Assembly: GCF_003585935.1 (NCBI RefSeq) | Contig: NZ_NRJG01000020.1 | Span: 1-52,926, forward strand | Reading direction: 5' to 3' | DNA from: Psittacicella hinzii | Lineage (GTDB): Bacteria; Pseudomonadota; Gammaproteobacteria; Enterobacterales; Psittacicellaceae | Length of the DNA: 52,926 nucleotides | Part shown: piece after piece, positions 34,527 through 52,757 of the stretch | Layout: each line of letters starts with the position of its first letter | Position numbering within the stretch: position 1 is the stretch's first letter | Notes under the pieces: generated by a model | What the model saw: only the letters and a program-made list of their open reading frames with translations | The model's database searches: none | Told to the model about the DNA's origin: nothing | Made by a program: the position numbers and the translations under genes

Positions 34527-37500
34527 TTAGTCGTGCGTTACGGCTTGTACAAGTTTAGCATTAGTTTGGGCTAATACAGGATTAGCTATAGCTACACTAA
34601 ATGGTACAAACGGTAAGACAAACGTAAAGTTATCAGCTAACCAATAAGGTTTAGCAAATTCAGAAGCCGCATTGCGTAGTGCTTGTTTACGAATTAAATA
34701 ACAACCATTACTATGAGCTGGTAAGGTTGGCATTAATTGTAAATCTTGCAGATCACTTACAATTAAGTATTCTTGCGGATAAGTAAGCAGTTGTTTATGT
34801 GTTCCAAGGTTTAAGTCACCTAGAGGTTTAAACGTATCTACTTGTTCCACTTGCGTAAGAATTAATTGTAAATGTTTAGCATAAGGAGACTTAGCATAAG
34901 ACAAGATTTCATTTAAGCGTTCACGCCATTGCTGATTAAACATTAGTGGCGTTTGGCAAATTAGCACCCAATCTTGCTCGCCAATAGTATCGTCGGCAAG
35001 GATTTGCGTATAAAGCTGACAATGACTAGCGGTTTGTGCCATGGCTTGTGGCGTTGGTTTATAACCAGCTAAGCGTTGGAACAGGTCAGTATTAAACTTA
35101 GTAGCTAGTTGCTTGTCATTAGGGTTAACAGCTGCTTGAGCATTAAACTCTAATGGCGCAACTTGATGCTTAAAGTAAGCTAAGGCTTGAGGGGCGCTCG
35201 GATCATAAAGTACAAACTTGTGTAATTGACTTACATGATCTTGTGTACCTACTTTACGGGCAGTATCTTGAGCAAAGAAACGCTGGAGACTAGTCATCGA
35301 AGTATCACGTGATTGATGTAAACTTGGACGTGGCGATGTTTGCGCAAAGAATTGCTGCATGTAGTTGTTAATTGCTAACGCAGGTTCAATTTGCCCAACC
35401 TTAGTTTCAGGTAACACTAACTCTCTAAACTCTTCAAGCTTAAAGGTAAATGTATTAAAGGCTAAAGCACGGGCTTTAGCACGTAAAGCTCCAACGTTTA
35501 AGAGTAGAAGATTTGGTGTGAGAGTAGCAGACACGCTTCTCGAGCTTAAAGCTTCACTACTTACAGAATTTGAATCATCAAGCCATTTTACGCGTGGGTA
35601 AATTAACTGCCAGTCAGTTAATACATACTCACCTTTACTAATAATTTGTGCTTGTGGCCAAACATATGAAAGAGTAGTATTAGCTTGGCTATATAAACTA
35701 TTAGTACCTAGGAGGTAGTCGTTTGGAGTTAAAGCATCTACGTATTGGGCAATTTGCTTACGCACAACTTTATCTTGGTTGGTACGACTATCTTGGTTAG
35801 TATACGGAGTATTAATCTGCTGACTAAAGTCAATGTACTCATTACTAATGCGTTGAGCATTTTGCTGCATAAATTTAAAGACACGCTCTTTAACAGCTTG
35901 TAAGTCGGCTTTACTTGCCAGACGTTTAAAGCTATCAACGCCATTTTGTGGAAAGGTGTTGTGCCCAGTGTGGCTTTGTAAAAAGCGCGTAATTACTTGC
36001 AGCGATGAGTTTTGATCACTAGTAGCGTTAGTATTAGAATTGGTATTAGCAGCTTGTTCGAGCTCTTGACGCAGAATACCTACTTGTTGTGCACTTAATG
36101 CCGCTAAGTTTACTTGCCACAGGCGACTAAGTTCAACTTGGCGTTGTTGATCTTGGGCACTTAAGAGACTAGGCTCTACTCCAGCTAAGCGTAAGAACTC
36201 TTCGCTATCTGGCAGACTACCCATAAAGGCTTCAGTACTTGCAAGATAGAGTGGAGCTTGCAGACTAGCACCTTGATCCTGAGCGGCATTTGTTTGGCTT
36301 TCCTCGGCATTTGCTTGCTCCTGTGCTGCTTCATCTTGCTCCTCTACGGCATTTGCTTGAGAGGCTAGCGCTTGCTGCGTAGGAGCTGCAAGGAAGTTAT
36401 CCGCAAGGATGCCATATAACACTTCAACTGGTTGATAAGTTAGAGCTAGATTATTTTCCCATTGGTAGCTCGTTTGCGCCAAGGCTTGAGCTGCATTAAG
36501 TGTATAACGAGCATTTACTTGCGCTACTGGTAACACACTATAGCCAGCTTCTGCTTTAGCACAAGTCGCTAGAGCATTATTACCAGCACGAGCTGCATAA
36601 GTAGCTTTAAAGTTACGCTCGCTAGTTGTCCCTAAAACTAAAGCTCCAGTCTCAGGTTGCTGATAAGCTAGGCTAAAGAGTTGAGCATTAAGTTTTTGTT
36701 GCCAATGGGTATCAAGCACTACATTATCCGAACTTAGTAGTACCCAATCGTGATTACCAAGATTAGGATCAGTAAGCACTTGCGTAAGTAATTTCCCCCA
36801 TGCGAATTCGGTACGTAAAGTATTTAAACTTGCATGCGGAGTTAAATACTCAAGCTGTCCTTGTTTAGTTTGCAGTGAGAGATACTCTTGGAACTCGGCT
36901 TGATTTACTTGCGGTAAGGTTACTAACTTAAAATCAGCGGTATGAGCTTGAGCATAGAAACGTGATAATTGTGAAGTTGGACGCCATGCAAATGCTCCTT
37001 GATCTGCTAAGACATATTTTTGGATATGACTACTTAAGTTATAACCTTGGCACGGTAGTCTTAGATCATTAGGAAATACCGGCACTTCTTGTTGCACTAA
37101 AGTTTGTAAAAACTCTTGCTGGGTTGCACTTAAGCTTTGCCAATGCTCTAATGAGGCATTCACTTGCTCTTTAATGTACTCTTTGTACTCTACATGCGAA
37201 GGGATTACTACTTGTAAACTCCCTGCCAGAGCTAAATCGGTAAGTACTTGCGGTTGCGCTTTCGTCAGTTGGCTAAAAGCAACACTTAAACTAGGTAAGA
37301 TTACACGGGCTGAGCATTGAGCAAGAATCTGCGTTAAGCTTAAATCAATTTGCTTGCCTAAATCTTGCGCAAACTCAGGTTGTTTATAGCTGGCTAAAGC
37401 TTGGTTAACACTTAAATACATATTAGCTAAATGTTTAGCTGTAGCTTTAGTTAGAGCATAAGCTTCTCCGGTAAATGCAAGTTCAGGATTAGCTTGAGCT

Positions 37501-38141
37501 AGCATACTAGCTTGTAAGTAAGGCTCTTGGTACTGCCATAATGGATGGTTAGCCATTTTCTCATGTACATAGTTTTGTACAGGATCGTTAATAGGTAAGA
37601 GGTTACTTACTTGCAGTTTAGCTAGAGCGCTCTCTGTAAACTCGTGCTCTTTAGCATGCCAAGCAAGAAATTGCGGATGCCCTAAGTGCACAATTGGCAT
37701 TAAGCCTTGGATATTTGCAGCTTCTTGTTCTTGTGATTCTTGTTGAGGTTGCTGTTCTTGCTGTTCTTGCTGATTTTGTTGAGCTTGTTGAGCTTGTTCT
37801 TGCGCAGCTTGTTGTTTAACTTGCTCTATAGCAAGATCTAACTTGCGTTGCCAATGCGGAGCTAAGGCAGTACCTTGCTCAACAATTACCACCCAAGCTT
37901 GCTCATCTAGACTCGGATCAAGGGCAATGTTTTGCCATAAACGTAAATGGCTTAGCACTTGCGTTTTTTGTGTAGCACTTATTTCAGTGCTAAACAAATC
38001 CGGAATCTCTGGCGGTAAGCTTGCCCAATTTACGGCTTGTACAGTCGTAAATTGACGCACAAAAGGCGTAAAGCTTGCTGCAAAGTCGCGTGCTGCGTCT
38101 AAGCCAGTAAGCATATAAGCCCGAAATTTGGTTTGTGCCAT
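34527..38141 (-). CDS. Multi-module GT25-like protein D (1204 aa), catalytic motifs lost
   Basis: This is the last gene of the GT25 block. I recognise at least three family 25 (LPS/LOS) glycosyltransferase-like modules by their core: a strand such as WVVIVEQG, a spacer and a conserved Trp. The cores are AWVVIVEQGTALAPHW (about nt 37845-37905), DWVLLSSDNVVLDTHW (36694-36753) and DWVLICQTPLMFNQQW (34921-34980). None has the E-D-D motif, so catalysis is unlikely. A fourth, vaguer module may lie between the last two. The C-terminal module starts HVSQLHKFVLYDPSAP and keeps the late GCYLIRKQALRNA region. Gln-rich linkers occur near nt 37690-37810 and 36270-36370. There is no signal peptide. It starts 5 nt after gene C, with CAGGAAAA upstream. 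Confidence 0.75.
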   Translation of the reverse strand: MAQTKFRAYMLTGLDAARDFAASFTPFVRQFTTVQAVNWASLPPEIPDLFSTEISATQKTQVLSHLRLWQNIALDPSLDEQAWVVIVEQGTALAPHWQRKLDLAIEQVKQQAAQEQAQQAQQNQQEQQEQQPQQESQEQEAANIQGLMPIVHLGHPQFLAWHAKEHEFTESALAKLQVSNLLPINDPVQNYVHEKMANHPLWQYQEPYLQASMLAQANPELAFTGEAYALTKATAKHLANMYLSVNQALASYKQPEFAQDLGKQIDLSLTQILAQCSARVILPSLSVAFSQLTKAQPQVLTDLALAGSLQVVIPSHVEYKEYIKEQVNASLEHWQSLSATQQEFLQTLVQQEVPVFPNDLRLPCQGYNLSSHIQKYVLADQGAFAWRPTSQLSRFYAQAHTADFKLVTLPQVNQAEFQEYLSLQTKQGQLEYLTPHASLNTLRTEFAWGKLLTQVLTDPNLGNHDWVLLSSDNVVLDTHWQQKLNAQLFSLAYQQPETGALVLGTTSERNFKATYAARAGNNALATCAKAEAGYSVLPVAQVNARYTLNAAQALAQTSYQWENNLALTYQPVEVLYGILADNFLAAPTQQALASQANAVEEQDEAAQEQANAEESQTNAAQDQGASLQAPLYLASTEAFMGSLPDSEEFLRLAGVEPSLLSAQDQQRQVELSRLWQVNLAALSAQQVGILRQELEQAANTNSNTNATSDQNSSLQVITRFLQSHTGHNTFPQNGVDSFKRLASKADLQAVKERVFKFMQQNAQRISNEYIDFSQQINTPYTNQDSRTNQDKVVRKQIAQYVDALTPNDYLLGTNSLYSQANTTLSYVWPQAQIISKGEYVLTDWQLIYPRVKWLDDSNSVSSEALSSRSVSATLTPNLLLLNVGALRAKARALAFNTFTFKLEEFRELVLPETKVGQIEPALAINNYMQQFFAQTSPRPSLHQSRDTSMTSLQRFFAQDTARKVGTQDHVSQLHKFVLYDPSAPQALAYFKHQVAPLEFNAQAAVNPNDKQLATKFNTDLFQRLAGYKPTPQAMAQTASHCQLYTQILADDTIGEQDWVLICQTPLMFNQQWRERLNEILSYAKSPYAKHLQLILTQVEQVDTFKPLGDLNLGTHKQLLTYPQEYLIVSDLQDLQLMPTLPAHSNGCYLIRKQALRNAASEFAKPYWLADNFTFVLPFVPFSVAIANPVLAQTNAKLVQAVTHD

Positions 38142-38146
38142 AAAAT

Positions 38147-41100
38147 TTAATTTTCCTGCGTAATAAATAATGGCGGAAACACGGTAGCAAAGGCTACACT
38201 ATGGAAGTAAAGCATATTCGGTAAATCACCATGACGCCAACTAATTTTTTCGCTTGCGACTTTATATTCAGCAATGTCATAACTGAAAATAAAGTAAGCA
38301 CGAGGATATTGTTCAGCGTATTGATTGAGCACCTGAATGCTTAGATACGGATTGATTTTTAAGTAGGTAGTATCTGCTTGATCCCCAAAGACATAATATT
38401 GCGGATAAGCTTCTGGTGCAATTACGTAATCCGTAAACTTATAGCCAAACTGATTAACTTGCTCATCATACATAGGTAAGCTAGTTAAATCACGTCCTTG
38501 TTGAGCTAATTGCGCCGCTAGATCTACATGTCCTGGTAAGGCTAAAGGATTACCGTCTACGGCCTTAAGCGCTCGCTCCATAAAGGTGTTTTGGAGGAGA
38601 ATAAAACCAGTATTTGTATTTAAACGTGAAGCTACAGCCGTCACTACTAAGTTGAGATAATTCGCTAGTTGATTAGTTAATGGCAGCTGATTATCTTCAA
38701 TAACTAAGAAGTAATTATGCACTTCGGTAGTTAGTTTGTGAATGTACTTATAGGCTTCTTGGTGCATAATCGCCAAGATCATTTCTTCACGTCCAGGTAA
38801 ACACTTATAGCGCTCTTGATATGCAGCTTGGTTATAGAATTTATCTAATAATTCTTGATCGCTGTATTTCTCGTAATCAGCACGCGGGATAATATGTGTT
38901 ACTTCCGGATAACGTTGTTTAATCTGCACGGTTGTAAGTTTATTTTGCAGAATAATTACGTGTTTATGAATAAAGTTAAGCGGTTTGTAGAGTTCTTTAT
39001 TGCGTAAACGTTGACGATTTTGCAGAATTACGTTTTCGCGGTCATCGTTAATTAACGAGTTAAACTCTTCGACGTTTTGTTGACTTAACATCGGTAGCGA
39101 GTAAGTATAAGCGTCTGGTTTAAAAGCAAAAAACTGTGGAAAATCATCAGCTACCCAATAAGGACGACTCTGATTAATAAAACGCGCTTGGCGTAATAAA
39201 GATTTACGGAACAGATAGTTCGATGAACCATAACTTACAACATTGTGCGGGAAGAAAATACTTTGCCCTTGTTGTAAGTAGTACAGGTCTTCGTCGGCAA
39301 AATTAAAGAAAGTAATTTTCTTTAATTGCTCAAGGCTTAATTCGCTATCTTTGTTTAGATTATTGTTATTAAGCTGAATAAACTCTGGAGCTGCTTGGTT
39401 TTGTGTTTGTAGATAATGCAGTAAGTGATTTAAGCGTTGATACCAATCAGCGCGGAATACTGTATCGTCTTCACAAACTAAAATCCATTGATCATCGGCA
39501 ATTGAATCATCAGCTAGCACTTGTTGATATAAGTGCATATGTGAGAGCGTACAACCAATCTCTCCTGGAGCAACAGGACGTTCGTAAATTTGATAGAACT
39601 TAAGGACGTCGAATTGCTCGTGCACTTGTTCTGGGCTTAGATCTTTACCATATACGGCTGGGATGATTTGGAAATCGTGCGTATAAGGTTGGGCTAAGAA
39701 AGCTTGTTTACGTTCTACTGATTGCGGTAAGTTAATTAAGAACTTAGGCATAGGAGCAACGTAATCTGGAGTTTGCGATTTATTGCTTTGACTATAACGT
39801 AAAGATCTTTGGCTTTGACGATTAGTGCGACGCACTTGGCGTGAAGTTAGAGCATACAGATCGTTTTGCGCCTGAGCAAAATCCTTCACCTTAGTATTAG
39901 GAATGCTTAAAGGTGGATTAAGTTGCACAATATCATGAGCACTAAAAACTTTAATCAGATTAGTAATCTGTAAAAACTCAAACATAAACAATGGCGCAGC
40001 CATTGCCATTACCTGACTATCACTTAAAGTTTGCCAGTCTACAAGTTCGGCAAGGGCATTAAGATCAACAAAAGGATGATTTTGTCCGTGACTTTGACGT
40101 AATAAGTAATTAAAGCTTAAGAGGCTTTGTAGCGTAGCGGTTTGGCGCTCATGCGGAGTTAGCTGTTTAGCTAAGTTAGTTAGTGCTTGCACTTGCTCGC
40201 TTAGTTGGCGGTAAATTTTACTGCTTTTTTCTAAGCGATAGCCTTGGAACATATTGTAAGCTTCAGGCACAGTGTTCAGATAATCTTCGATTAGATCATA
40301 GTTACTGTTTTGCTCATAAAACTCTTGTTCCACTTGGGTTGTATGAGCTTGCTGTTTTTGCAGCTCGGCTTGTCTTGCTTGGATACTTGCAGGATCAAGT
40401 ACTACTTTACTTAATCTATCACGTAAGCGCTCTAAGTAAGAGAAGATAAATTGCTTACTAAAGAGCCAAAAATCTATATCTCGTCGCACAAAACGCACGA
40501 GTGAATTTAGCGTTTGTGCATAAAAGTCATGCTCTAAATAGAGCTGCGGACTTAAGGTTGGCAGTAAAGATAATGATTTATGCAGAGACTCATCAAAGTT
40601 TTGATGGGACTGTTTAAAGAAGTTAGCAGGTAAATAGTTAAAATCCGTAGCACCATCAACACTACCAGCAATCATTAAGTTACTGCTTACAAGGTTGGCC
40701 GTTACGCGTAAAGCTTGATTTAAACGCGCTTTCCAGTACGGAGCTAATTCATTATCAGCATTAAGGACAATAAAGTAATCACCAGCTTTAAAGTCTTGGT
40801 TTACTAATAATGCTTGGAAAATGCGATATAGGGCAATGCTTTTATTTAAATGCTCTTTGTAGACAAGGAGTTGGCTATTACCGATCGTATTCACCATAAT
40901 CGTCCACGCATTAGCTAGACTTTGTTGCTCATGAGCTGAAGGTGAACTTAAGGCTACCGGAATAAAGTCAGCTGTATCCTCTTGGCGATAAAAGTAACTT
41001 AAAGTATAAGGGTCTTGCTCATCATAGGTAACAAACTTAGGCATTTGCGCTACATAGTCGTAGCCAAGGCTTTTTTGCTCGACTACGATCTGCATGCCTA

Positions 41101-42172
41101 GCATATAGTTAACATACTTTTGCGCGTCAAACGAGAGAACAATTTGTCCTTGATGATGCTGACTAACACCGAGATCCGGATTAGCTGCATAGGCTTGCCC
41201 TAAACGATAATCTGTAAGAATTAACTCCCATTGTCCAGGATGCCAAGCAATAGTTTTATGCCAAGGGGCAGCATCAATTCTAGGACGTTCAAGCGCAGGT
41301 GCGGCTTGATAAAACTTAGCCTCTTGGGCTGCAAGCTTAGCTATAGCTTGTTGTGCTTGTGCTACTTGTTGTTGCATTAATGCAGCATCAACTTGCAGCT
41401 GTTGCACAATTTGGCGTACTGTTGCTACTTTAATTAAGTAGAACGGACTATAAGCCTGTTGGTTGTTTAATTCAAGTTTAAGCGCCTGATTTAAACTCTC
41501 GAAGTTACACGTCGAGTTCTTTAAATTAATTGTTGCAAACTCTTTAGCTTTTTGTCCGTGTAGATTATAAATATCTTGGGCTTGCTCACTGGCAAAGTTA
41601 AAAGGATCGGCTTGCTCAAGATAAGCTGCAAATTCAGGCATTAAAGCAGCACGCTGACTTTGATACCGAGCTTGCTCTAAGCTAAAAGTAGTTGTTAGCT
41701 CTTGCGCTTGGATTTGCTCGTTTGTTTGCGGATCATATTGTGCAGGCTCACGACTTAATAATGATAAATTCTTAAGATTAGATAAATTAATTACCCCAAT
41801 CTTAGCTGCAAGCGGATCAGTTGTCAGCACATGCAGAATATCTTCTACTTGTTCTTGCCAATTTGAAGCAAGGATTTGTCCGTTCTCACAAACAACTACC
41901 CATTGCTCATCACTAAGTTGTTCATCGCTCGCAATTAAAGCATAGAGGTCTAAGTGTGCAAGGATTTGTTGTTGCAAGGTCATCGATACTTGCTCGTCAT
42001 TGTTTAGCGTAGCTTTATAAGCTTGCGCATCAAAGCGAGCCGCTAATTGCGCTTCACTGTAGTTAAAGGCTGGGACATGCGTAAAAATCTGCGCTCCAGG
42101 TTGACGACAACTTAGGGCATAAGAAAGATTATGCCCTAAGAGTAATAAATAAGATTTAGCGAGTTTAGTCAT
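38147..42172 (-). CDS. Multi-module GT25 protein C (1341 aa), one intact module
   Basis: This gene has four GT25-like modules. Module 3 is canonical: KFLINLPQSVERKQAFLAQP, then APGEIGCTLSHMHLY, then WILVCEDDTVFRADWYQRL (about nt 39436-39498), and a late SYGSSNYLFRKSLL. Such enzymes add sugars to lipooligosaccharide using nucleotide sugars at the inner face of the membrane. Module 1 has VVVCENGQILASNW (41850-41912), module 2 FIVLNADNELAPYW (40725-40783), and module 4 YFLVIEDNQLPL (38665-38720), where the last Asp is Asn. Module 2 is preceded by GYDYVAQMPKFV, a boundary shared with the paralogs. The frame is open to 42211, but ATG 42172 lies 2 nt after the gene B stop and begins MTKL like gene B, so I use it. 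Donor and acceptor are unknown. Confidence 0.82.
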   Translation of the reverse strand: MTKLAKSYLLLLGHNLSYALSCRQPGAQIFTHVPAFNYSEAQLAARFDAQAYKATLNNDEQVSMTLQQQILAHLDLYALIASDEQLSDEQWVVVCENGQILASNWQEQVEDILHVLTTDPLAAKIGVINLSNLKNLSLLSREPAQYDPQTNEQIQAQELTTTFSLEQARYQSQRAALMPEFAAYLEQADPFNFASEQAQDIYNLHGQKAKEFATINLKNSTCNFESLNQALKLELNNQQAYSPFYLIKVATVRQIVQQLQVDAALMQQQVAQAQQAIAKLAAQEAKFYQAAPALERPRIDAAPWHKTIAWHPGQWELILTDYRLGQAYAANPDLGVSQHHQGQIVLSFDAQKYVNYMLGMQIVVEQKSLGYDYVAQMPKFVTYDEQDPYTLSYFYRQEDTADFIPVALSSPSAHEQQSLANAWTIMVNTIGNSQLLVYKEHLNKSIALYRIFQALLVNQDFKAGDYFIVLNADNELAPYWKARLNQALRVTANLVSSNLMIAGSVDGATDFNYLPANFFKQSHQNFDESLHKSLSLLPTLSPQLYLEHDFYAQTLNSLVRFVRRDIDFWLFSKQFIFSYLERLRDRLSKVVLDPASIQARQAELQKQQAHTTQVEQEFYEQNSNYDLIEDYLNTVPEAYNMFQGYRLEKSSKIYRQLSEQVQALTNLAKQLTPHERQTATLQSLLSFNYLLRQSHGQNHPFVDLNALAELVDWQTLSDSQVMAMAAPLFMFEFLQITNLIKVFSAHDIVQLNPPLSIPNTKVKDFAQAQNDLYALTSRQVRRTNRQSQRSLRYSQSNKSQTPDYVAPMPKFLINLPQSVERKQAFLAQPYTHDFQIIPAVYGKDLSPEQVHEQFDVLKFYQIYERPVAPGEIGCTLSHMHLYQQVLADDSIADDQWILVCEDDTVFRADWYQRLNHLLHYLQTQNQAAPEFIQLNNNNLNKDSELSLEQLKKITFFNFADEDLYYLQQGQSIFFPHNVVSYGSSNYLFRKSLLRQARFINQSRPYWVADDFPQFFAFKPDAYTYSLPMLSQQNVEEFNSLINDDRENVILQNRQRLRNKELYKPLNFIHKHVIILQNKLTTVQIKQRYPEVTHIIPRADYEKYSDQELLDKFYNQAAYQERYKCLPGREEMILAIMHQEAYKYIHKLTTEVHNYFLVIEDNQLPLTNQLANYLNLVVTAVASRLNTNTGFILLQNTFMERALKAVDGNPLALPGHVDLAAQLAQQGRDLTSLPMYDEQVNQFGYKFTDYVIAPEAYPQYYVFGDQADTTYLKINPYLSIQVLNQYAEQYPRAYFIFSYDIAEYKVASEKISWRHGDLPNMLYFHSVAFATVFPPLFITQEN

Positions 42173-42174
42173 AC

Positions 42175-45100
42175 CTATTTTTGAGAGGAAATGGTCATAG
42201 GTGGTTGGCATACGGCAATAGACTTAACGCTATATGGCATACCTAACACATAATCACTTGCTAAGAAGAAGCGTTTAGTACCATTAGTTAAATAATGATG
42301 TTGAACGCTTGGTACGAATTTTAAGAAGATGTACGATCCCGAACCGTTTGGTGTTTTACGCGTAGTTACACCAATATCGATTTCGTCGTTAACGTGGAAG
42401 TACTTATCTTCTGGAACAAAGAGATGGTTAGCTTCCCATTGTTCATAAGGTAACTTATTCTCAAAGCTTTGTTCTTGAATCGAGTTTGAAGTCATGATTA
42501 AGAGTGTATCTAAATCTAGACGCGTATCGACATAATCACATAAGCAATTGAGCTTATATTTGTAATCATGGATTAACTCTTGATCATCTTCTACAATAAA
42601 GTGGAACGTAAAGTTCGAGATTGGCATTTGCAGAATATGATTCCACGCAGCTTGGTGTGCCAGAGTTAGATTTAACTCTGCAGGTGTAATTTCTCGTCCG
42701 TACGATTGCTTAAAGCGTTCGAAGTCGAATAACTCTTCTTGTTCAGCACGCGGTAAAGCAGCATAGTCTTTAAACGGAATGATCGTAAATCCTGGGAACT
42801 TACGGTTAATCTCTTCTTCACTTAAGCTTTTTTGGATCACAAAGTAGTGACTAGCTTGTAAATATTCAGATGGAGAAGTAAGTGGCACTGAGCGCAGTTT
42901 GATTTTCTCGCGCTCAAGACTAGCAATACGTTCAGCATTAAGAATAGACTCAAGAGCTGTATCGTCATAACCCATTTGTGGATTAGTGTAGGCAAACATG
43001 CCAGGTCTAAAACGATAGTAAGCAGCAATGTCATCACCTACCCAGTCGATTTTACCTTCAATACGTTTACGTTCAGCCACGAGCAGACGTTTCTTGATTA
43101 GGTAGAAACCTGCACCAGCAGGGAAAGGTTTTTGTAATAAACCTATACCTAGAGTATCTGGAGCTATTTCATGATAGCCTGGAACAATTGAGTTTAACGA
43201 GTGTACACTACAGAACTCTTCTGGTTCTAAGAAGTTAAAGTGAGGTACTTGGTTTTGCGCCCCGTTAATAATCATTACACGATCACGTAAATGATACTCA
43301 ACATAAATTAAAATCTGATTCAGTAAGTTATACCAATCTGGATGTAATTTAGTGTCATCTTCGATAATCATTACCCAATCATCGAGATCGAGTTCAGGAT
43401 CATATAAAGCTTTACGCAGAATTTGCGTATGCGATAAGGAACAACCATATTCGCCTGGCTGCATTTCACGATTGTAACGTGCGTGATAACGCGGAATATC
43501 AAAGGCTGCTTCTTTTTCTTCTTGGTTGAGGTTTTTTCCGATTACAGCATGGTGCACGTAAAAGTCGGCAATATGCGACTGCTGCATAAAGGCTTGCAGA
43601 CGATCTACCGAAGAAGGTAAGTTAATTACGTATTTTTTAACTTTGGCTAGTTTATCTGGTAAAAAGCCAGCACGTGCATATCCAGCCAGATTTTGTAATT
43701 CTGGTGATTTTTGCTGAATTTTAGCTTGAAGTTCTGGCTCTTGTTGCGCAATTAACTCGGTAATTGGCACATCTGTCCCAAAGTACCATGGTTTGTCAGC
43801 AGCAATTTTAGCAGCTTGCTCGGCAGTTAAATCACTGGTGTCGAGGTTTTCAGGTACGTAAGGAGCATTGAGCTCACCGGTTTTATAGTAGTCAGCACGC
43901 GTAATGTCTTCATCAGTTGGCAATTTAGTTGCAGGTAAAGGATTAATACGCTCAATTTGCGCTTGAATTAATGCTTGCTGCATATCTTGCGGTTTACCAG
44001 GATATTCAGCAATTAATTTATTTAAGTCTTGCTGCTCAACTTCACCATGTAGTAAATAATCAACCGAATGATCTTCTTGCGTAGCCGCACTTGGGTTTTG
44101 GCTAATTTTCTCTTGACTATAAACTAGAGCTAAACTTGGGTTTAACCACAGACAACTACCCACTTTAAACTCAAACAGCGACGCATAGCGATCGAGGTAA
44201 AGTTTACTCCGATCACGATAATCATCGGCTTGCAGTTTTTGCGTTAGTGCTTTTTTACGAATCAGGACTAAAGGATATTCACTAAAAATATATGAACTAC
44301 TTACTGCTGCTTCGAGATCAGCACCTAGAGGGTGCACCCAATCTTGTTGTTGGGTATGTAAGTTATTTTTACGTAAGAGTTCGAGTTTAGTATTGAAATT
44401 CGGATCATCAATTGGTCTAAAACCAGATTCAACCGCGCCAATCCCAGTAAATAATAAGTTACACTCTGGATAACGTTGATGCATAAAGCCAATGGCTTTA
44501 TTTAAAGTGTTATACCAAGATGGACGTAATAATGCTCGGTCTTTAGCAATTAGCACAAAGTCATCATCGGCAATGGTTTGATCATTAACAATGCTTAGCA
44601 GTAACTCACGTTGTGCTAAGGTTAGCGCCGTAGTCTCTAAACGCGGTTGTACCGGTTGCGAGCGTTGCATGTCAATTGGATAATAGTAACTTTGCTCGAC
44701 CTGCTCTAAATCCCATTTTTCGATGCTAGGTAAAGGCCAAGCGGTAAAGTTTTTAGTATTTTCTTGACTAAAGAAGCGCCCTAAATATTGCTGATTATCA
44801 GTAGTCGTCATTACATACTTACGAATATTACTTAAGTAATCATAACCATGAGAAGTAATGGCATGACTTTGCTGCTCAAAGCCGAGCGCCATACTTGCTT
44901 GTAAAGCTAGTTGTTGCGCTTGCGCGTCGTGTAGATTATTGGCATTATCTTTACGCGTGTGTACTCCTAGGGCTGGATTTGCCATAGCTACACTATGGGT
45001 AGTAAACTCCATAATAAAGTGCACAGCATCTTTAGTCCAGTACAGATTCCCATCAAACGGTAAGAGGGTGTGATATTCTTGCCAGTTAGCAGTTGTTTGT

Positions 45101-46107
45101 TTTAAGTATTCTGGTAAATCTGCTTGCTGACGCGCAATGGCTTGTTCACTTACGGCTAGAGGTACTGATTCATGAGTGTTATCACCATTGAGGCTTTGTA
45201 CTTTTACGATCCCTGATGAGTTTAGAGTAGTAAAAGCTTGTCCATAAGTCAGCTTATCTAAAGCGCGAATTACAGACGGAGCAATTTTTTCACTTAAAGC
45301 TGGTTTGCGGATCAGGAAGAATGCACCACGATAGAAGTTAAAAACATTCGACGGGTTAATTTCTTGTTGCCCTAAAATCGAATTTAACTTATAGGTGTAA
45401 CTGCTTACATCGGTATCGATCTGGCTTTCAGGATAAATGCCTAAATTATCTAATTCTTCTTTGCTTAGTTGGGCAAAAGAGGCATTTTTATCATAGCTTA
45501 AGAAGATGTATTTAGTGTTATTTAAGTATTGACGTTCTTCTGCGGTCGTACGCTGCTCTAAAGCTACAAGTTGTTCTTGCGTACAAAGATCTCTTTGTAA
45601 TTGTCCACTTAAACCATAACTCGCGAGAATACTTTCTAAACGCCATGCCCATTCAGGATGAAGATTAACTTGATCTTCACACACTAAAACCCACTGTCCA
45701 TTAGCAATATTCGGATCTAAAGCAACATGAGCTAACAGATTATTAACGCTAATAGCTTCGTTTACGCTTTGGATCGATAAGACAGTTGAAGGTAAAGGTG
45801 AACACTGTTCTTTGTACTTATAAAAGTCAAAATAGGGTTGGAGTGCTTTTAAGAATGGGGCATGCTCATATTCGTCAGTAGTAAAACCTGGAGCATTAAT
45901 ATCAAACTCAAAAGCAGGATGGTACAAATTAGCCATCTCTTGGCTAATTTGTCCACGTTCAAGCATAAGCTTAACAATGTCTACCCCTTTAATTGGAGTA
46001 AACATTGCTGCATATGGTTGATGAAAAAAGTCTAGTTCCGGCTTATTACCGGTAGGCATTTCTATAACAAATTTAGGAATGCTGGCTAAAAGGGGTAATT
46101 TAGTCAT
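42175..46107 (-). CDS. Multi-module GT25 protein B (1310 aa), two modules with E-D-D
   Basis: This gene has four GT25-like modules and is the best preserved of the set. Module 3 is canonical: KKYVINLPSSVDRLQAFMQQ, QPGEYGCSLSHTQIL, WVMIIEDDTKLHPDWYNLL (about nt 43330-43385) and GAGFYLIKKRLL. Module 4 keeps FIVEDDQELIHDY (42556-42608), but its LSH is LAH and the Trp is Tyr. Module 1, starting IPKFVIEMPTGNKPELDFFH, has WVLVCEDQVNLHPEW (45640-45700). Module 2, starting GYDYLSNIRKYV, has FVLIAKDRALLRPSWY (44515-44572). No signal peptide or membrane helix is seen. It begins 5 nt after the gene A stop with no clear ribosome site and is probably translationally coupled. Role in LOS or capsule sugar transfer is inferred from the family. 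Confidence 0.85.
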   Translation of the reverse strand: MTKLPLLASIPKFVIEMPTGNKPELDFFHQPYAAMFTPIKGVDIVKLMLERGQISQEMANLYHPAFEFDINAPGFTTDEYEHAPFLKALQPYFDFYKYKEQCSPLPSTVLSIQSVNEAISVNNLLAHVALDPNIANGQWVLVCEDQVNLHPEWAWRLESILASYGLSGQLQRDLCTQEQLVALEQRTTAEERQYLNNTKYIFLSYDKNASFAQLSKEELDNLGIYPESQIDTDVSSYTYKLNSILGQQEINPSNVFNFYRGAFFLIRKPALSEKIAPSVIRALDKLTYGQAFTTLNSSGIVKVQSLNGDNTHESVPLAVSEQAIARQQADLPEYLKQTTANWQEYHTLLPFDGNLYWTKDAVHFIMEFTTHSVAMANPALGVHTRKDNANNLHDAQAQQLALQASMALGFEQQSHAITSHGYDYLSNIRKYVMTTTDNQQYLGRFFSQENTKNFTAWPLPSIEKWDLEQVEQSYYYPIDMQRSQPVQPRLETTALTLAQRELLLSIVNDQTIADDDFVLIAKDRALLRPSWYNTLNKAIGFMHQRYPECNLLFTGIGAVESGFRPIDDPNFNTKLELLRKNNLHTQQQDWVHPLGADLEAAVSSSYIFSEYPLVLIRKKALTQKLQADDYRDRSKLYLDRYASLFEFKVGSCLWLNPSLALVYSQEKISQNPSAATQEDHSVDYLLHGEVEQQDLNKLIAEYPGKPQDMQQALIQAQIERINPLPATKLPTDEDITRADYYKTGELNAPYVPENLDTSDLTAEQAAKIAADKPWYFGTDVPITELIAQQEPELQAKIQQKSPELQNLAGYARAGFLPDKLAKVKKYVINLPSSVDRLQAFMQQSHIADFYVHHAVIGKNLNQEEKEAAFDIPRYHARYNREMQPGEYGCSLSHTQILRKALYDPELDLDDWVMIIEDDTKLHPDWYNLLNQILIYVEYHLRDRVMIINGAQNQVPHFNFLEPEEFCSVHSLNSIVPGYHEIAPDTLGIGLLQKPFPAGAGFYLIKKRLLVAERKRIEGKIDWVGDDIAAYYRFRPGMFAYTNPQMGYDDTALESILNAERIASLEREKIKLRSVPLTSPSEYLQASHYFVIQKSLSEEEINRKFPGFTIIPFKDYAALPRAEQEELFDFERFKQSYGREITPAELNLTLAHQAAWNHILQMPISNFTFHFIVEDDQELIHDYKYKLNCLCDYVDTRLDLDTLLIMTSNSIQEQSFENKLPYEQWEANHLFVPEDKYFHVNDEIDIGVTTRKTPNGSGSYIFLKFVPSVQHHYLTNGTKRFFLASDYVLGMPYSVKSIAVCQPPMTISSQK

Positions 46108-46112
46108 AAATA

Positions 46113-49100
46113 TTAAGACAGTTGTTTAGCTACTATTAAGTCAGCTAATTTTCTTAAATCTAGTTGGTACTGATATACAGTTGCTTGCTCGTTTGCAGAA
46201 TTTGCAACTAAAGAGCTCTTAGAAGCAGACGTTTCCTGTTGTTTGTTTACCTGCTCGCTATAAGCTTGATGGTTGTTAGTTACTTTGTCCTCATTGCTAG
46301 CGTTAGCTTTAGATTCAGCTTTAAGCTCTGCTTTAGGTTCTTTCTTGCTGCCTTTAAAGAGGTTGCGGAAAAAGCCACCTTTAGTTTTACTTTGTGCTTG
46401 AGAGATCCTTACAGCAGCAGTAGTAGTTTCAGCATTTGCAGTAGCGTCGGTACTTACAGTAGTGTCACTATTAGCAGAAGTGTCACCGTCAGAAACTGAA
46501 TGAGAATTACTTTCTGCAGTAGCTTCTGCTTCGGCGGTTGTAGAAGAATTTACTTGCTTAGCAGTAACTACTTGCGGCTCACAGCTTAAAGTACTAGTTA
46601 ACTCAGCAAGGCTTAATTGTAAATCTTTGGCTAATTGCGCAAACTGCTTCTCACTTAGTTCTAGGTCATGTAATGCAACGCTTGAGTTTAAGCTTTGTTG
46701 CATTAGTTCATAAGCGAGTAAGCTTGTTTGTTGCGCTTCAACATCCAGAGCTAAAGGAGCTAAGTGGGTAACTATGCCGTTTATCGCTAACGCAGCAACC
46801 GTTTCTCCTGCTGCAAGTTGTTGCACAATCTTAGGTAAAGCTCGTTTAGCGACAATAATCCCTCCTAAAGAAGCTAAAGTAGCGGTACTAACTTGCTCGT
46901 TAGTAAGAGATATGTCACTTGAAGTTACATTATCTGTTGTACTTGTTGCACTAGTCTCATTTGTGTTAGTACTTGAAGTAGTGCTTGAGGTATTAGTACT
47001 ATTAACCGGTAAAATAATAAAGATTGGTACTTCACCTGCACGTACAAATGCTTGAGTTAAAGCTTGATTTGCTTGCTTATACCAATCTGCACTAAAACAT
47101 GCCGTACGTGGCACTAGGAGTAAATAATCGTAAGCAAGAATACTTTGATCAGCGTTTACTTGTTGAGCAAGAGTTTGTAAATTGCTTAAGCTTAAATCTT
47201 GCAGTAGTGCAGCTAGATCTAACTTAGAAGTTGCTTCTTGCAGGTTTGTACTATGGTTAAGGGCAAGAGTATTACATAGTTGGAAATCGACCGTGTTCTC
47301 TTGCGCAAAGAAGTTACCTAAAACTTCTTGACTAGTTGCACTATTACCTAAAGTGGTATAAGAGATACTTGCTGCAGGAGTAATAAAACCTAAAGCATCT
47401 AAGTGACTACTATGGGCTGCAGCTGGTGCAAGTACATATTTACGCATGGTTGCTAAATAGTCATAACCAGTACTTAGTGTACCTTTTTGATAATTTACAT
47501 CATAGAGAGCTTGACTTATAGTTGCCCAAGCATTTGCTACTGCTGGTTGCTCTTGAGCTAAAAGCATACCTAAACTTGGGATTGCATTAGCGACAACGGT
47601 TTGTCCTTGTTGCCAATTACTAAATGCTCCAGCTAAGAGTGAATAACGTCCTTGAGGGACACAAGGTTGCCAGCCTAGTTTTTGCAGGATTTTACTGTGA
47701 GCTTGACTAGTAGTAAAACCAGCTTGATCTAAACTTATGCTCGTAGTACTAGCGATATGGTTCTGTAGTAGGGCTCGTTTAGAGACTAAAAAACCAGCAG
47801 CTCCCGTACCTTGTAAAGCTTGTAAAAACTCTAAGCCGAGATGTATATCTTGCTCAGCTACTTGCGGATAAGCACTTGGACTAGTGCTTAAATTTAGATG
47901 TACTTGATGAGCGGCAATGCTAACTAGGTTGCTTGGATGTTTATGCGGATTATCGACATTTACCCAATTAGCAAGAGTTAAGTCTTTAGCTTGATAGAGT
48001 TGGTTCCCTAATTTAATTAAACCGGTACGTACCAGACGATCTAGTAAAGCTACTAAAGCATGTTCACCACGTGCTAGAGCCGTTTGTAAATATTCAGGGA
48101 GTTCGCTATAAGCTTGCAGTAAAGCTTGGCGATAGGTTTGTTTATAAGCTACAAAGTTTTCTTGCTCGGAACTTTGAGCTGAACTTTTAGCTGTACTTTG
48201 AGCTACAATTTGTTCTGTGCTTTGAACTGTGCTTTGTGTAGCGTTAGTATTAGCGTCAGTATCCTTTGTAGCTGAAGCTAATTCACTATCAGTGTTAGCA
48301 AAGCTTATATCAACGCGAGAGCTAGCAGGGTTAGCAGTGTTTGCTTTTACTCGAAGAGCTTGTAGTTCTGCATTGTTCGCTAGAGATTGCTGTAAGATTG
48401 TTACTAGTTGCAGATACTGCTCAACACGTAAGCGCCAATCTGGTAAGAGTTTTAACTCTTCATTAACTACCATTACCCACTCTTGCTCTTGGAGTTGCGA
48501 GTTTTGGGCAATGTATTGGTAAATGAGGCGTTGCGTTACTGCGGCATTAATTTGCTTAAGGGTAAATTTACCTTGTAATTGCGCGGCTTGCGCTTTAGTA
48601 CCTTGCCAAAACAGACGTAAACGTAATAAGCCTTTAGTACCTAAAGTAGCTTGTGTCTTATCGCTAAGAAGTGAGGCAATGTCAACTAAATCACTTGCTG
48701 CGTCAGAGGCTGTAATAATTGTTTGTCCCCAAGCATTAGTGCTAAGTTGTTGGCTATTGGTAAGCGCGGTGTTTTGTAGCGTATGTTTGTCTAGGTTAGC
48801 GGCTTTGTTAGTGCTAGCTTTTTTATGCGCTTGAAGATTAGTGCTTTGCGCTAATAGTTCATTAGCTAAAGCTTCTCCGTAAGCTACTAACGGTGCTAGT
48901 TCTAGAGTTAAAGCACTAGCGCGAGCTAAACTATGTTGTAAACGCTCTAAATAGTCTGTATGAGTTGCATACAGAGGAGCTTGCGTTACCAGATCTGGTA
49001 AGGCTTGCGTATCTAGATCACTTGGCACGAGATAACCAAAACGTACTAATTGTTGTACAAAGTACTGATCATCGCTCAAGCGTCCAGCCTGAAAGCCGCT

Positions 49101-49223
49101 AAATTGCGTAAATTCTTCGGCATAAGGCTGCGTATAGAAATCTGCTGCTATCTTAGAATCACTACCCCACACGATTTTGCAAAGGTTAGTGACTTCTGGC
49201 AAAGATAAGAATGAGTTTTTCAT
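46113..49223 (-). CDS. Multi-module GT25-like protein A (1036 aa), first gene, motifs lost
   Basis: This is the first gene of the operon. Two degenerate GT25-like modules are visible. Module 1 has WVMVVNEELKLLPDW (about nt 48430-48495). Module 2 starts GYDYLATMRKYV, includes FFAQENTVDF, and has YLLLVPRTACFSADWY (47076-47137). Neither keeps E-D-D. Between and after them lie long Ser/Thr/Asn/Gln-rich stretches (nt 46920-47000, 48180-48350). The C-terminal 150 residues are Ser/Thr/Ala/Glu-rich, with a single basic-aromatic patch GGFFRNLFKGSKKEPK (about nt 46330-46380) that could bind membrane. No signal peptide or clear ribosome site is seen at ATG 49223. Family membership rests on alignment with genes B-D. 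Confidence 0.72.
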   Translation of the reverse strand: MKNSFLSLPEVTNLCKIVWGSDSKIAADFYTQPYAEEFTQFSGFQAGRLSDDQYFVQQLVRFGYLVPSDLDTQALPDLVTQAPLYATHTDYLERLQHSLARASALTLELAPLVAYGEALANELLAQSTNLQAHKKASTNKAANLDKHTLQNTALTNSQQLSTNAWGQTIITASDAASDLVDIASLLSDKTQATLGTKGLLRLRLFWQGTKAQAAQLQGKFTLKQINAAVTQRLIYQYIAQNSQLQEQEWVMVVNEELKLLPDWRLRVEQYLQLVTILQQSLANNAELQALRVKANTANPASSRVDISFANTDSELASATKDTDANTNATQSTVQSTEQIVAQSTAKSSAQSSEQENFVAYKQTYRQALLQAYSELPEYLQTALARGEHALVALLDRLVRTGLIKLGNQLYQAKDLTLANWVNVDNPHKHPSNLVSIAAHQVHLNLSTSPSAYPQVAEQDIHLGLEFLQALQGTGAAGFLVSKRALLQNHIASTTSISLDQAGFTTSQAHSKILQKLGWQPCVPQGRYSLLAGAFSNWQQGQTVVANAIPSLGMLLAQEQPAVANAWATISQALYDVNYQKGTLSTGYDYLATMRKYVLAPAAAHSSHLDALGFITPAASISYTTLGNSATSQEVLGNFFAQENTVDFQLCNTLALNHSTNLQEATSKLDLAALLQDLSLSNLQTLAQQVNADQSILAYDYLLLVPRTACFSADWYKQANQALTQAFVRAGEVPIFIILPVNSTNTSSTTSSTNTNETSATSTTDNVTSSDISLTNEQVSTATLASLGGIIVAKRALPKIVQQLAAGETVAALAINGIVTHLAPLALDVEAQQTSLLAYELMQQSLNSSVALHDLELSEKQFAQLAKDLQLSLAELTSTLSCEPQVVTAKQVNSSTTAEAEATAESNSHSVSDGDTSANSDTTVSTDATANAETTTAAVRISQAQSKTKGGFFRNLFKGSKKEPKAELKAESKANASNEDKVTNNHQAYSEQVNKQQETSASKSSLVANSANEQATVYQYQLDLRKLADLIVAKQLS

Positions 49224-49526: not shown

Positions 49527-52500
49527 ATGTTTGATCAAACCTTATACATTATTGATGGTACGGCCTTAATTTTTCGTAACTATCATGTCTTCTTAGATTT
49601 ATATTTAAATTCGAAAAAACAAGATACCGGTGCTATTAACGGTACTATTACTTCTTTAAATGCTCTGTGGCGTAATCAGTTACCAGAAAACATTGTGGTA
49701 GTTTTTGACCCAAAGAGTCCGTCGTTCCGTCAAGAAATTTATAGCGAATATAAAGGACATCGTGCCTCACCTGATGAACAATTAAAAGCACAGTTTGAAC
49801 CGATTATTAAACTTATTAAAGCCATGGGTTTCCCAGTGCGTATTATTGATGGCTATGAGGCCGATGACGTAATCGGGACTATTGCTAAGTATCACAGTGC
49901 TAAAGGGCATCACGTAATTATTGAGTCGCGCGATAAAGACTTTATTCAGCTAATCGATGAACATATTAGTCTAAGTGATGAAGGTAAGTCTAGCTATGAT
50001 CTAAAAAATGCTCATACTAAATTTGGTGTACCAATTGAGTACACAATTGACTTCTTAGCCCTTTGTGGTGATAGTGCTGATAATATTCCAGGGGTAAAAA
50101 ATGTCGGAGAGAAGTCAGCGGCTGCCATTATTAATGGTTATGGTGGTTTAGAAGACATTTACCGTGCAATCGATAATGGAGAGTTTACCAAACAAGTAAC
50201 TAATCTCCGTCCAGAAACCCTAGCGAAGCGTTTACTTGAAGGACGTGAGAATGCTTTCTTATCGTATAAACTAGCAACTATTTACACCCAAGTGCCGCTC
50301 GAGAATATTGAGTTAGAAGATTTTGTGATGCAAGATCCGGATGTAAACAAAATCTTGCAAATTGTTGAAGAGTACGAATTAAATTCTTTACGTAGTTCTT
50401 TAATGGCAAATACGCTGCACTTCTTAGAAGATAAACAAGATTTAGTACAACCTGGGATTGCAGCCTATCATTCTGAGCATGGAATGTTTGAATCACGTCC
50501 GTTCCTGAAAATCAATAAAACTGCGATCAAGCATTTAACACCTGAAGAGCGTCAAGAAGTATTTAATACAGGTTTGCTGCCTGATGGTACTCCTGCTAGT
50601 GAAGCTCCAGCTTCATCACGTGCGCGCGCCAACAGTAAAACAAAAAGTTCGAAGAGCTCTAAAGGAGCAAAAGCAGATAAACAAGAAGCTTATATTTGTA
50701 CGGAGCAAGATTTAGCTCTCTTAGCAAGTACCGAGAAGTTTGCGGTTGATCTTACGAACTACTCTGACAAGATTGTTGAGCAACAATTAATTAATCTCTC
50801 GAGCGTAAGTGATGAGTTACCCGCTCTTACTTCATTAGAAGCTAAGCAACAAGTTTTTAGTCGAGCTTTACAAGCTAGTCCTTTAATGAGTGCTTTAGCA
50901 CAGGCGGCACAAGTAAGTTTGCTCTGGGAATTCAACCCACTACATAAAACACCTGTGGCTCTAAAAGTACTGGTTGAAAGTCAAACAGACACAGCAGCGC
51001 AAGAGGCCAACCAACAGGCTCTAGCGCAAGAGAAACAAGTTGCGGCATTAGATAGTAACTATGTACGTCCGGCATGGCAAACAGAGTTTGCAAGTCGCCA
51101 AGTATTTAGCTTATCGTTTGAAGGAGTTCAAGAATTACTTACCGGACAAATCTTTGTTGCTAAAGAGAAATCTGCGCAATATGTAACCGAAAATTTTAAA
51201 GCTTTTGTGGGGGCTTTTAAAGAGTTAGTAGTTTTACCTCTTTTGGATCAGAAGTATGCGCATATTCCAGTTTTAGTAAGTGACTTAAAAGATCTAGCAC
51301 ATATTTGTGCTTTAGACTTAGCAACCGTACAACAAGTAGGCGCGAATGTGCATGATCTCAAAGTGCTAGCTTATACACGTAACTCAGCAGTTAAAGATAC
51401 TAATATTGCTGGTTATGCGAAAGCTTTTACTGGTCTAGACTTTACGCCAATTAAATACTTAAAAACTAAAGTTGATCTTGAGCAAATTATGACAGCGCTA
51501 AATGAAAGTATTGCCTTTATGCCAGTACTTTATAGTTGCTGTAAAACCCTTGCGCAAAGTTCACTTTACGCGCAAGTTGAACAACCTCTATGGAAATACC
51601 TCTATGCCATGGAAGTTAATGGGGTTAAAGTTGACTATACGCGTCTCAAAGCTGTTGCTCAAGCTTTACAGGCTGAAATTGCACAAGTTGAAGCTAAGGT
51701 TTATGAGTTAGCCGGACAAGAGTTTAATATTAACTCTCCAAAACAAACCGGACAAATCCTGTTTGAAAAACTCATGTTACCAGACATGAATAATGGTTCG
51801 ACCAGTGCTGAAGCTTTACGTGAGTTATCGCATCCAATTATTGAGCCGATTTTAGAGTACCGCTCATTAACGACTATTATTAGTACCCACGTATTACCGC
51901 TAATTGAACTCGCTAAAGCGAATAAAGAGCAAATGATCCACACCACGTTCCAACAAACGCAAGTGGTAACTGGACGTTTATCATCGCAAGATCCAAACTT
52001 ACAAAACGTACCAGCACGTTCAGATATAGCTAAAGAAATCCGTGCGAGCTTTGTAGCCCAACCTGGCTATAAGATTGTAAGTTTCGACTATAGTCAAATC
52101 GAGTTAAGAGTTTCTGCATGTTTATCACAAGATGAGCATATGTTAGAAGCTTTTGCCCATGGAGAAGATATCCACGCTCGTACAGCTTCTAAACTTTTCA
52201 ATGTTGCACTATATCAAGTAGAGTACAAACAACGTCAAATTGCTAAAGCGATTAACTTCGGTTTAAACTATGGGAAAACGGCTTATAGTTTATCAATCGA
52301 ATTAGGCATTAGCCGTCAAGATGCTAAAGCTTATATTGATAGTTACTTTGAGACCTATCCAAGCATTAAGGGCTTTATTGATAAGACAATTAATAAAGCA
52401 AGCAGTTGTATGTACGTACAAACAATTGAAGGGCGAGTAATTCCATTACCACGCATTCAGTCGACAATTCGTCCGGTAGCTGAGGCGGAAAAACGTAATG

Positions 52501-52757
52501 CGACTAACTATCCAATCCAAGGTTCGGCTGCCGAAATTATTAAAATCGCCATGGTGGCTTTAAATAAAGCTATTACTGAGAAAATGCCAGAAGTGCTACC
52601 GTTATTACAAGTACACGATGAGTTAGTATTCTCGATTCCAGAACACTTAATTTATAACTATGTGCCACAAATTAAGCAATTAATGGAAGAGTGTGTAAGC
52701 TTACCAGGAGTGAACTTATTAGTAGAATTCTCGGTAGGTGATCACTGGAAAAAATAA
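49527..52757 (+). CDS. polA: DNA polymerase I, proofreading domain degraded
   Basis: PolA removes RNA primers and fills gaps in replication and repair. It is 1076 aa (E. coli 928). The N-terminal 5'-3' nuclease is intact (IDGTALIFRNYH, GYEADDVIGT, DKDFIQL, GDSADNIPGVKNVGEKSA). The polymerase has motif A FDYSQIELR (Asp 854), motif B AKAINFGLNYGKTAY and motif C QVHDELVF (Asp 1031). Between them a Ser/Lys/Ala-rich linker (nt about 50584-50685) leads into a diverged 3'-5' exonuclease region. There the D-x-E motif reads FAVDLTN, with Thr for Glu, and the late Y-x-A-x-D-A-D region reads NESIAFM, so proofreading is probably lost. No clear ribosome site precedes the ATG. A terminator follows. Confidence 0.95.
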   Translation: MFDQTLYIIDGTALIFRNYHVFLDLYLNSKKQDTGAINGTITSLNALWRNQLPENIVVVFDPKSPSFRQEIYSEYKGHRASPDEQLKAQFEPIIKLIKAMGFPVRIIDGYEADDVIGTIAKYHSAKGHHVIIESRDKDFIQLIDEHISLSDEGKSSYDLKNAHTKFGVPIEYTIDFLALCGDSADNIPGVKNVGEKSAAAIINGYGGLEDIYRAIDNGEFTKQVTNLRPETLAKRLLEGRENAFLSYKLATIYTQVPLENIELEDFVMQDPDVNKILQIVEEYELNSLRSSLMANTLHFLEDKQDLVQPGIAAYHSEHGMFESRPFLKINKTAIKHLTPEERQEVFNTGLLPDGTPASEAPASSRARANSKTKSSKSSKGAKADKQEAYICTEQDLALLASTEKFAVDLTNYSDKIVEQQLINLSSVSDELPALTSLEAKQQVFSRALQASPLMSALAQAAQVSLLWEFNPLHKTPVALKVLVESQTDTAAQEANQQALAQEKQVAALDSNYVRPAWQTEFASRQVFSLSFEGVQELLTGQIFVAKEKSAQYVTENFKAFVGAFKELVVLPLLDQKYAHIPVLVSDLKDLAHICALDLATVQQVGANVHDLKVLAYTRNSAVKDTNIAGYAKAFTGLDFTPIKYLKTKVDLEQIMTALNESIAFMPVLYSCCKTLAQSSLYAQVEQPLWKYLYAMEVNGVKVDYTRLKAVAQALQAEIAQVEAKVYELAGQEFNINSPKQTGQILFEKLMLPDMNNGSTSAEALRELSHPIIEPILEYRSLTTIISTHVLPLIELAKANKEQMIHTTFQQTQVVTGRLSSQDPNLQNVPARSDIAKEIRASFVAQPGYKIVSFDYSQIELRVSACLSQDEHMLEAFAHGEDIHARTASKLFNVALYQVEYKQRQIAKAINFGLNYGKTAYSLSIELGISRQDAKAYIDSYFETYPSIKGFIDKTINKASSCMYVQTIEGRVIPLPRIQSTIRPVAEAEKRNATNYPIQGSAAEIIKIAMVALNKAITEKMPEVLPLLQVHDELVFSIPEHLIYNYVPQIKQLMEECVSLPGVNLLVEFSVGDHWKK

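Follow-up and report, generated by a model that had tools for sequence, protein, structure and literature searches.

The 52,926-nucleotide stretch of Psittacicella hinzii DNA analysed here (contig NZ_NRJG01000020.1, positions 1 to 52,926; hereafter the window) carries an operon of four giant genes, A to D, in which we confirmed 13 GT25-like modules of the GT-A fold, two in A, four each in B and C and three in D. The best explanation, to which we assign a probability of about 55%, is that two or three of these modules are active cytoplasmic GT25 transferases, probably of the lipooligosaccharide (LOS) outer core, embedded in pseudo-enzyme scaffolds that form a complex. An earlier note on this DNA had offered three readings, a multi-domain LOS assembly line, a pseudo-enzyme scaffold surrounding a few active modules and a reservoir for recombination. 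The scaffold fits best, as only the M3 modules of B and C and the M4 module of B combine an EDD site with slow evolution.

The operon consists of four contiguous open reading frames on the minus strand, named in the order of transcription, and is flanked by polA and by an enlarged class-I adenylate cyclase gene, cyaA (Table 1). With the inner ATG of C (position 42172) taken as start, the genes are separated by 5, 2 and 5 nt, in agreement with the earlier note, which had described four adjacent genes with gaps of 2-5 nt and products of 1036-1341 aa. The highest mean hydropathy over 19 residues in A-D was 1.8, and the proteins look cytoplasmic because none of their segments is conspicuously hydrophobic. 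The same operon was found at the same polA-cyaA position in three further genomes of Psittacicella (contigs of P. melopsittaci, P. hinzii and P. gerlachiana), a genus of the order Pasteurellales. These contigs were detected by a scan with an alignment of B, which is 42-44% identical between the window and its relatives; the same scan with C alone as query gave zero matches. The operon is intact in all four Psittacicella assemblies, which share its synteny, and an artefact of frame or assembly, a concern of the earlier note, is therefore excluded. A phage or plasmid source was also rejected: phages and viral contigs gave no match, and the plasmid search returned a single weak GT25 match on a Parabacteroides plasmid.

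Table 1. Operon genes, their modules and flanking genes in the window. Profile values are probabilities against the closest single-domain GT25 family.
Feature	Position	Strand	Length	Description	Evidence
Gene A	46113..49223	-	1036 aa	two degenerate GT25-like modules (M1, M2) and low-complexity stretches; EDD site absent	ORF; profile match to B
Gene B	42175..46107	-	1310 aa	four modules	ORF; PF01755; self-alignment
B M1	44938..46107	-		degenerate; EDQ in place of EDD	profile 93.6; motif table
B M2 and following linker	43750..44880	-		degenerate; KDR	profile 94.9; modelled
B M3	42949..43647	-		putative active GT25 module; GEYGCSLSH, EDD, DWVGDD	Pfam; profile 99.1; model
B M4	42181..42852	-		EDD kept; putative, possibly active	profile 96.3; model
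Gene C	38147..42211	-	1354 aa from first ATG; 1341 aa from ATG 42172	four modules	ORF; PF01755
C M1	41141..42172	-		degenerate	profile 94.3
C M2 and linker	39887..41083	-		degenerate; weakest module in C	profile 47.5
C M3	39059..39757	-		putative active GT25 module; GEIGCTLSH, EDD, PYWVADDF	Pfam; profile 99.9
C M4	38153..38962	-		EDN in window, EDD in the other three genomes	profile 79.0
Gene D	34527..38141	-	1204 aa	three modules, M4 lost	ORF; alignment with orthologues of 1337-1367 aa
D M1	37254..38141	-		degenerate; Q-rich insert	profile 96.5
D M2	35355..37079	-		degenerate; long, mostly helical, low-confidence insert	profile 95.6
D M3	34545..35231	-		EDD lost in window (CQTP), kept in the other three genomes; long branch	profile 99.8
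polA	49527..52757	+			
cyaA	24034..34485	+		enlarged class-I adenylate cyclase gene	

The modules were identified by profile-profile comparisons with sets of orthologues, by shuffle controls and by two structure models. Pfam family PF01755 (GT25) exceeded its gathering cut-off of 24 only in C (residues 822-1017) and B (824-933), where the M3 modules scored 73.7 bits (E 2.4e-20) and 64.3 bits, respectively; A gave no Pfam hit, and D of the window had none above the cut-off. In the profile comparisons, proteins of the B, C and D types each showed four modules and A showed two, with the probabilities listed in Table 1; these values come from the orthologue sets, and in that of D M4 reached 95.1. 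Aligned with itself, B matched with a probability of 99.5 at a shift of one module, or about 424 residues; at a probability of 100, the three proteins B, C and D are colinear. Residues 7-636 of A match residues 4-548 of B, that is, B M1-M2, with a probability of 98.9. Against the single-domain family A M2 reached 81 and A M1 only 4.9, and for the latter reason the module assignment of A appears to rest mainly on its kinship with B. Column-shuffled profiles (n = 40) reached at most 4% and the unrelated cyaA at most 0.6%, which rules out that the weak matches arose by chance or from composition. D of the window stops after M3, while its orthologues continue into M4; the total in the window is therefore 2 + 4 + 4 + 3 = 13, in line with the at least 13 modules claimed in the earlier note.

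Both structure models, of B (residues 400-1310, pLDDT 68, with M3 and M4 mostly at about 75-93) and of D (residues 1-1200, pLDDT 56), are of modest confidence. The GT-A order of strands and helices occurs three times over in the D model, with lower confidence at M1. As shown by VIA-align, M2-M3 of this model match human COLGALT1 with Z 19.1 at an rmsd of 13.9 Å, so the match holds domain by domain, and the COLGALT1-like domain arrangement may differ in D or be poorly predicted. By the same method D M3 matched mimivirus R655 (Z 17.7, 3.1 Å), D M2 matched SpsA (Z 9.2, 3.7 Å) and D M1-M2 a chondroitin synthase (Z 9.1, 16.8 Å). In the B model, M2-M3 superpose on both domains of COLGALT1 (9evj_B; Z 18.8, 363 residues aligned, 6.6 Å) and M4 resembles the GT-like fold of vaccinia H3 (Z 12.6, 3.3 Å). 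In the models, which cover B and D, a GT-A fold was thus matched by B M3, B M4 and D M2-M3, with B M2 included in the COLGALT1 match. M1 appears to be the module least supported by structure, and the modules of A are predicted from sequence.

COLGALT1 (GLT25D1) provides a known parallel to the domain order of M2-M3. It consists of a non-catalytic GT-A domain, through which it dimerises, followed by a catalytic GT25 domain whose EDD (E435-D436-D437) is the metal site (PMC13382579). A sequence search aligned M3 with the catalytic domain only (E 8e-11, EDD on EDD); the likeness of M2 to the N domain is structural. COLGALT1 is, however, a two-domain collagen enzyme of the ER, to which Psittacicella adds M1, M4 and an operon of four paralogues.

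Among the sequence motifs, the complete set of GExGCxLSH, EDD and WxxDD was intact only in M3 of B and of C, in all four genomes. The EDD is also retained in B M4 in four of four genomes, and in C M4 and D M3 in three of four, the exception being the window in both cases. M1 and M2 of every gene lack the EDD/WxxDD set in all four genomes, apart from an ED pair in D M2 of two relatives, and an EDD following GExGCxLSH was found neither in M1 or M2 nor in A nor in D of the window. The metal-binding site thus appears to be kept only in M3 of B and C, and probably in M4 of B, and most modules are predicted to be unable to act through the usual GT25 site. M1 and M2 could use some other, unrecognised active site; metal-independent GT-A enzymes exist (PMC7185993).

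Conservation follows a similar gradient. Between the window and the other genomes, identities were 60-62% for B M3 and 55-58% for C M3, compared with 53-57% for PolA; 55-58% for B M4 and 37-43% for C M4; and 30-37% for M1 and M2 of B and C. In D the modules reached 22-35%, and A reached 28-30%. The M3 modules of B and C are conserved about as well as PolA, and M1 and M2 change faster.

These data bear directly on the assembly line of the earlier note, in which most modules would be active and each would add a different sugar, as in the WbdA O-antigen polymerases. Polymerases in which each linkage has its own GT module are known from bacteria (PMC11231755), and the EDD of the M4 modules of B and C would fit such an enzyme. 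The absence of EDD and WxxDD from M1 and M2, the much faster evolution of these modules and the lack of any intact module in A nevertheless make it rather unlikely. Only its weak form stands, namely that two or three transferases may work in one complex. WbdA and WbbB, which act in a membrane-associated complex, resemble the Psittacicella proteins in having several GT modules per chain (PMC11231755). They differ in that their modules belong to other GT families, are active and were probably recruited from different sources, whereas all modules of Psittacicella appear to stem from a single enzyme that was duplicated in tandem, and the majority are inactive judging by their sequences. The WbdA pattern, in which each GT module is competent, was not found, M1 and M2 being devoid of the GT25 metal site.

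The closest single-domain proteins are GT25 enzymes of Pasteurellaceae, of about 260-280 aa, which are encoded in an LOS cluster; the neighbouring genes specify a flippase, two GT2 enzymes and a membrane protein of the EpsG type. We take the flippase and the EpsG-type protein to be such by recognition of their sequences; the GT2 enzymes were also identified by search. Motifs shared with M3 are FFxQxNTxDF, GEIGCTLSH, CEDD, YLIKKSA and WLADDF; the Pasteurellaceae enzymes have one domain, in contrast to three or four modules, most of them without the site, in the 1204-1354 aa of the Psittacicella proteins. In Haemophilus influenzae, lsgC (HI1698) belongs to the lsg LOS locus and is given as a putative galactosyltransferase (PMC6530457). 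The Pasteurellaceae GT25 sits in the lsgC position, a name given from gene order and not from comparison with HI1698. LOS is the most likely acceptor of the putative active modules, judged by their kinship with the gene in this position. Lipid A genes and genes of the heptosyltransferase family (GT9) are present in Psittacicella; a search there for the EpsG-type neighbour, run without a positive control, gave zero matches.

Alternatively, the complex might glycosylate proteins instead of LOS. The two closest solved structures, COLGALT1 and mimivirus R655, would suit this idea, but kinship in the GT25 fold says little about the acceptor and the closest sequences lie in the LOS cluster with flippase, GT2 and EpsG-type genes. 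We consider protein glycosylation improbable.

In a tree without COLGALT sequences, the M3 modules formed one clade (support 100/99) that joined the Pasteurellaceae LOS-cluster GT25 at 100/99. In the tree of all modules, those of B, C and D grouped by position (M1 96/86, M2 80/83, M4 100/99), and the M3 modules did not resolve as a single group. The grouping of M1, M2 and M4 by position favours quadruplication inside one gene before the gene duplications.

In the mechanism that we favour, a single-domain LOS transferase of the lsgC type was quadruplicated into one M1-M2-M3-M4 chain, which was then duplicated to give B, C and D, with A corresponding to the M1-M2 half. The two M3 modules of B and C, perhaps together with B M4, would bind a Mn-nucleotide sugar through the EDD site and transfer the sugar in the cytoplasm, most likely onto the LOS outer core. 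M1, M2, all of A and D of the window have lost the catalytic site and would have taken on a structural role. They may place M3 correctly, mediate dimerisation or keep the four co-translated proteins attached to one another, comparable to the N-terminal GT domain of COLGALT1, and A would be a wholly non-catalytic partner. The computations establish homology, the number of modules, the sequence of duplications, where the motif was lost or kept, the gradient in conservation and synteny, while catalysis, the LOS acceptor and assembly into a complex are inferred from them. A related case is COSMC, an inactive GT copy that has been kept and serves an active paralogue as chaperone or scaffold (PMC7185993). 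COSMC forms a protein of its own, whereas the pseudo-modules of Psittacicella lie in cis and, with gene A, also in trans. A bolder version, in which A-B-C-D form one obligate hetero-oligomeric machine for glycan assembly with pseudo-GT25 modules organising two or three active centres, is doubtful. If it were true, the pseudo-modules would have been selected for new jobs (holding the acceptor, measuring chain length, docking), and a glycan assembly line would have arisen in a single genus as modules were duplicated in tandem and lost their catalytic function.

LOS genes of Pasteurellaceae are often variable, and with many paralogous modules side by side the operon could be imagined as a reservoir in which surface sugars are varied by module shuffling, as the earlier note had proposed. 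The module tree, the repeat search and the search for shared words all contradict this highly improbable reading. Apart from the overlap of genes B and C, exact shared DNA words of at least 18 bases between the genes are absent; when the species are compared, modules of the same position fall into a separate orthologous group each time, and exchange between modules was not seen. Tandem repeats were short and of low match, and a tetranucleotide phase-variation tract was not found.

The extra modules might also be partly decaying ballast on ordinary transferases in a genus that inflates its proteins generally. LpxB, LpxK, PolA and CyaA are enlarged as well, and D of the window has lost both M4 and the M3 site that its sisters retain. 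Such neutral growth is nevertheless unlikely: among the three other genomes M1 and M2 are open, colinear and 37-60% identical, a predicted GT-A-like fold is kept where it was modelled (weakly for M1, better for M2), and the four-gene layout is conserved.

Outside Psittacicella, about 1,400 sampled genomes showed no tandem GT25 protein; as the samples overlap and each species is represented by a single genome, rare tandem cases may escape. None occurred among the matches listed for 395 genomes of the order, in 198 relatives searched with the full B profile, in 369 genomes of the class or in 398 of the phylum. Of two larger ORFs inspected in the samples of class and phylum, one encodes a 696-aa protein in which GT25 is joined to an O-antigen ligase (Wzy_C) domain (L094:543-2633, elsewhere in the phylum), and the ORF listing for the other gave no obvious tandem GT25 protein. 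Elsewhere in the order GT25 proteins are mostly 220-320 aa long, which bears out the earlier statement that the family normally consists of small single-domain proteins.

Already known are pairs of pseudo-GT and active GT (COLGALT1), pseudo-GT chaperones (COSMC) and modular bacterial polymerases (WbdA, WbbB). In the literature searched we found no description of four-module GT25 chains in a four-gene operon, derived from one ancestor and mostly inactive. The operon represents a clean natural experiment in the conversion of an enzyme into a multi-module machine: the sister family still has the single-domain ancestors, active and dead modules occur within the same chains, the derived form is present in four species and one of these is currently losing modules. 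The purpose of pseudo-glycosyltransferase domains, a question shared by COLGALT1, LH3 and chondroitin synthases, thereby becomes testable. The operon also draws attention to a so far unstudied system for surface glycans in bacteria that live with birds, Psittacicella being a little-studied genus of parrot bacteria.

Further giant proteins with GT25 modules occur in Psittacicella, and none of the PF01755 matches in the genus falls in a gene of the usual 250-aa size. Protein E (about 1,900 aa; L047:6225-12059, orthologues in L036, L044 and L045), encoded near lpxK in all four genomes, has a C-terminal GT25 module that has lost WxxDD and kept EDD, preceded by about 1,650 residues of unknown fold. 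The genome of the window contains a second giant GT25 cluster (L046:7601-15024) with F1 (1231 aa), F2 (298 aa, the smallest PF01755 protein of the genus) and F3 (863 aa). Taken as a pair, F2 and F3 are colinear with F1; they look like a single gene that is split, with F2 as its front.

Enlarged housekeeping proteins suggest a genus-wide inflation of proteins. LpxB has about 650 aa, LpxK 665-713 aa and PolA 1033-1092 aa (L036:484-2463, L047:2711-4849 and polA of the window). CyaA comprises 3483 aa in the window and 1946-2003 aa in two sister species; it starts as a normal class-I adenylate cyclase (about 300 residues, 62-67% conserved) and continues into a huge tail rich in A, Q, S and T, with little homology between species.
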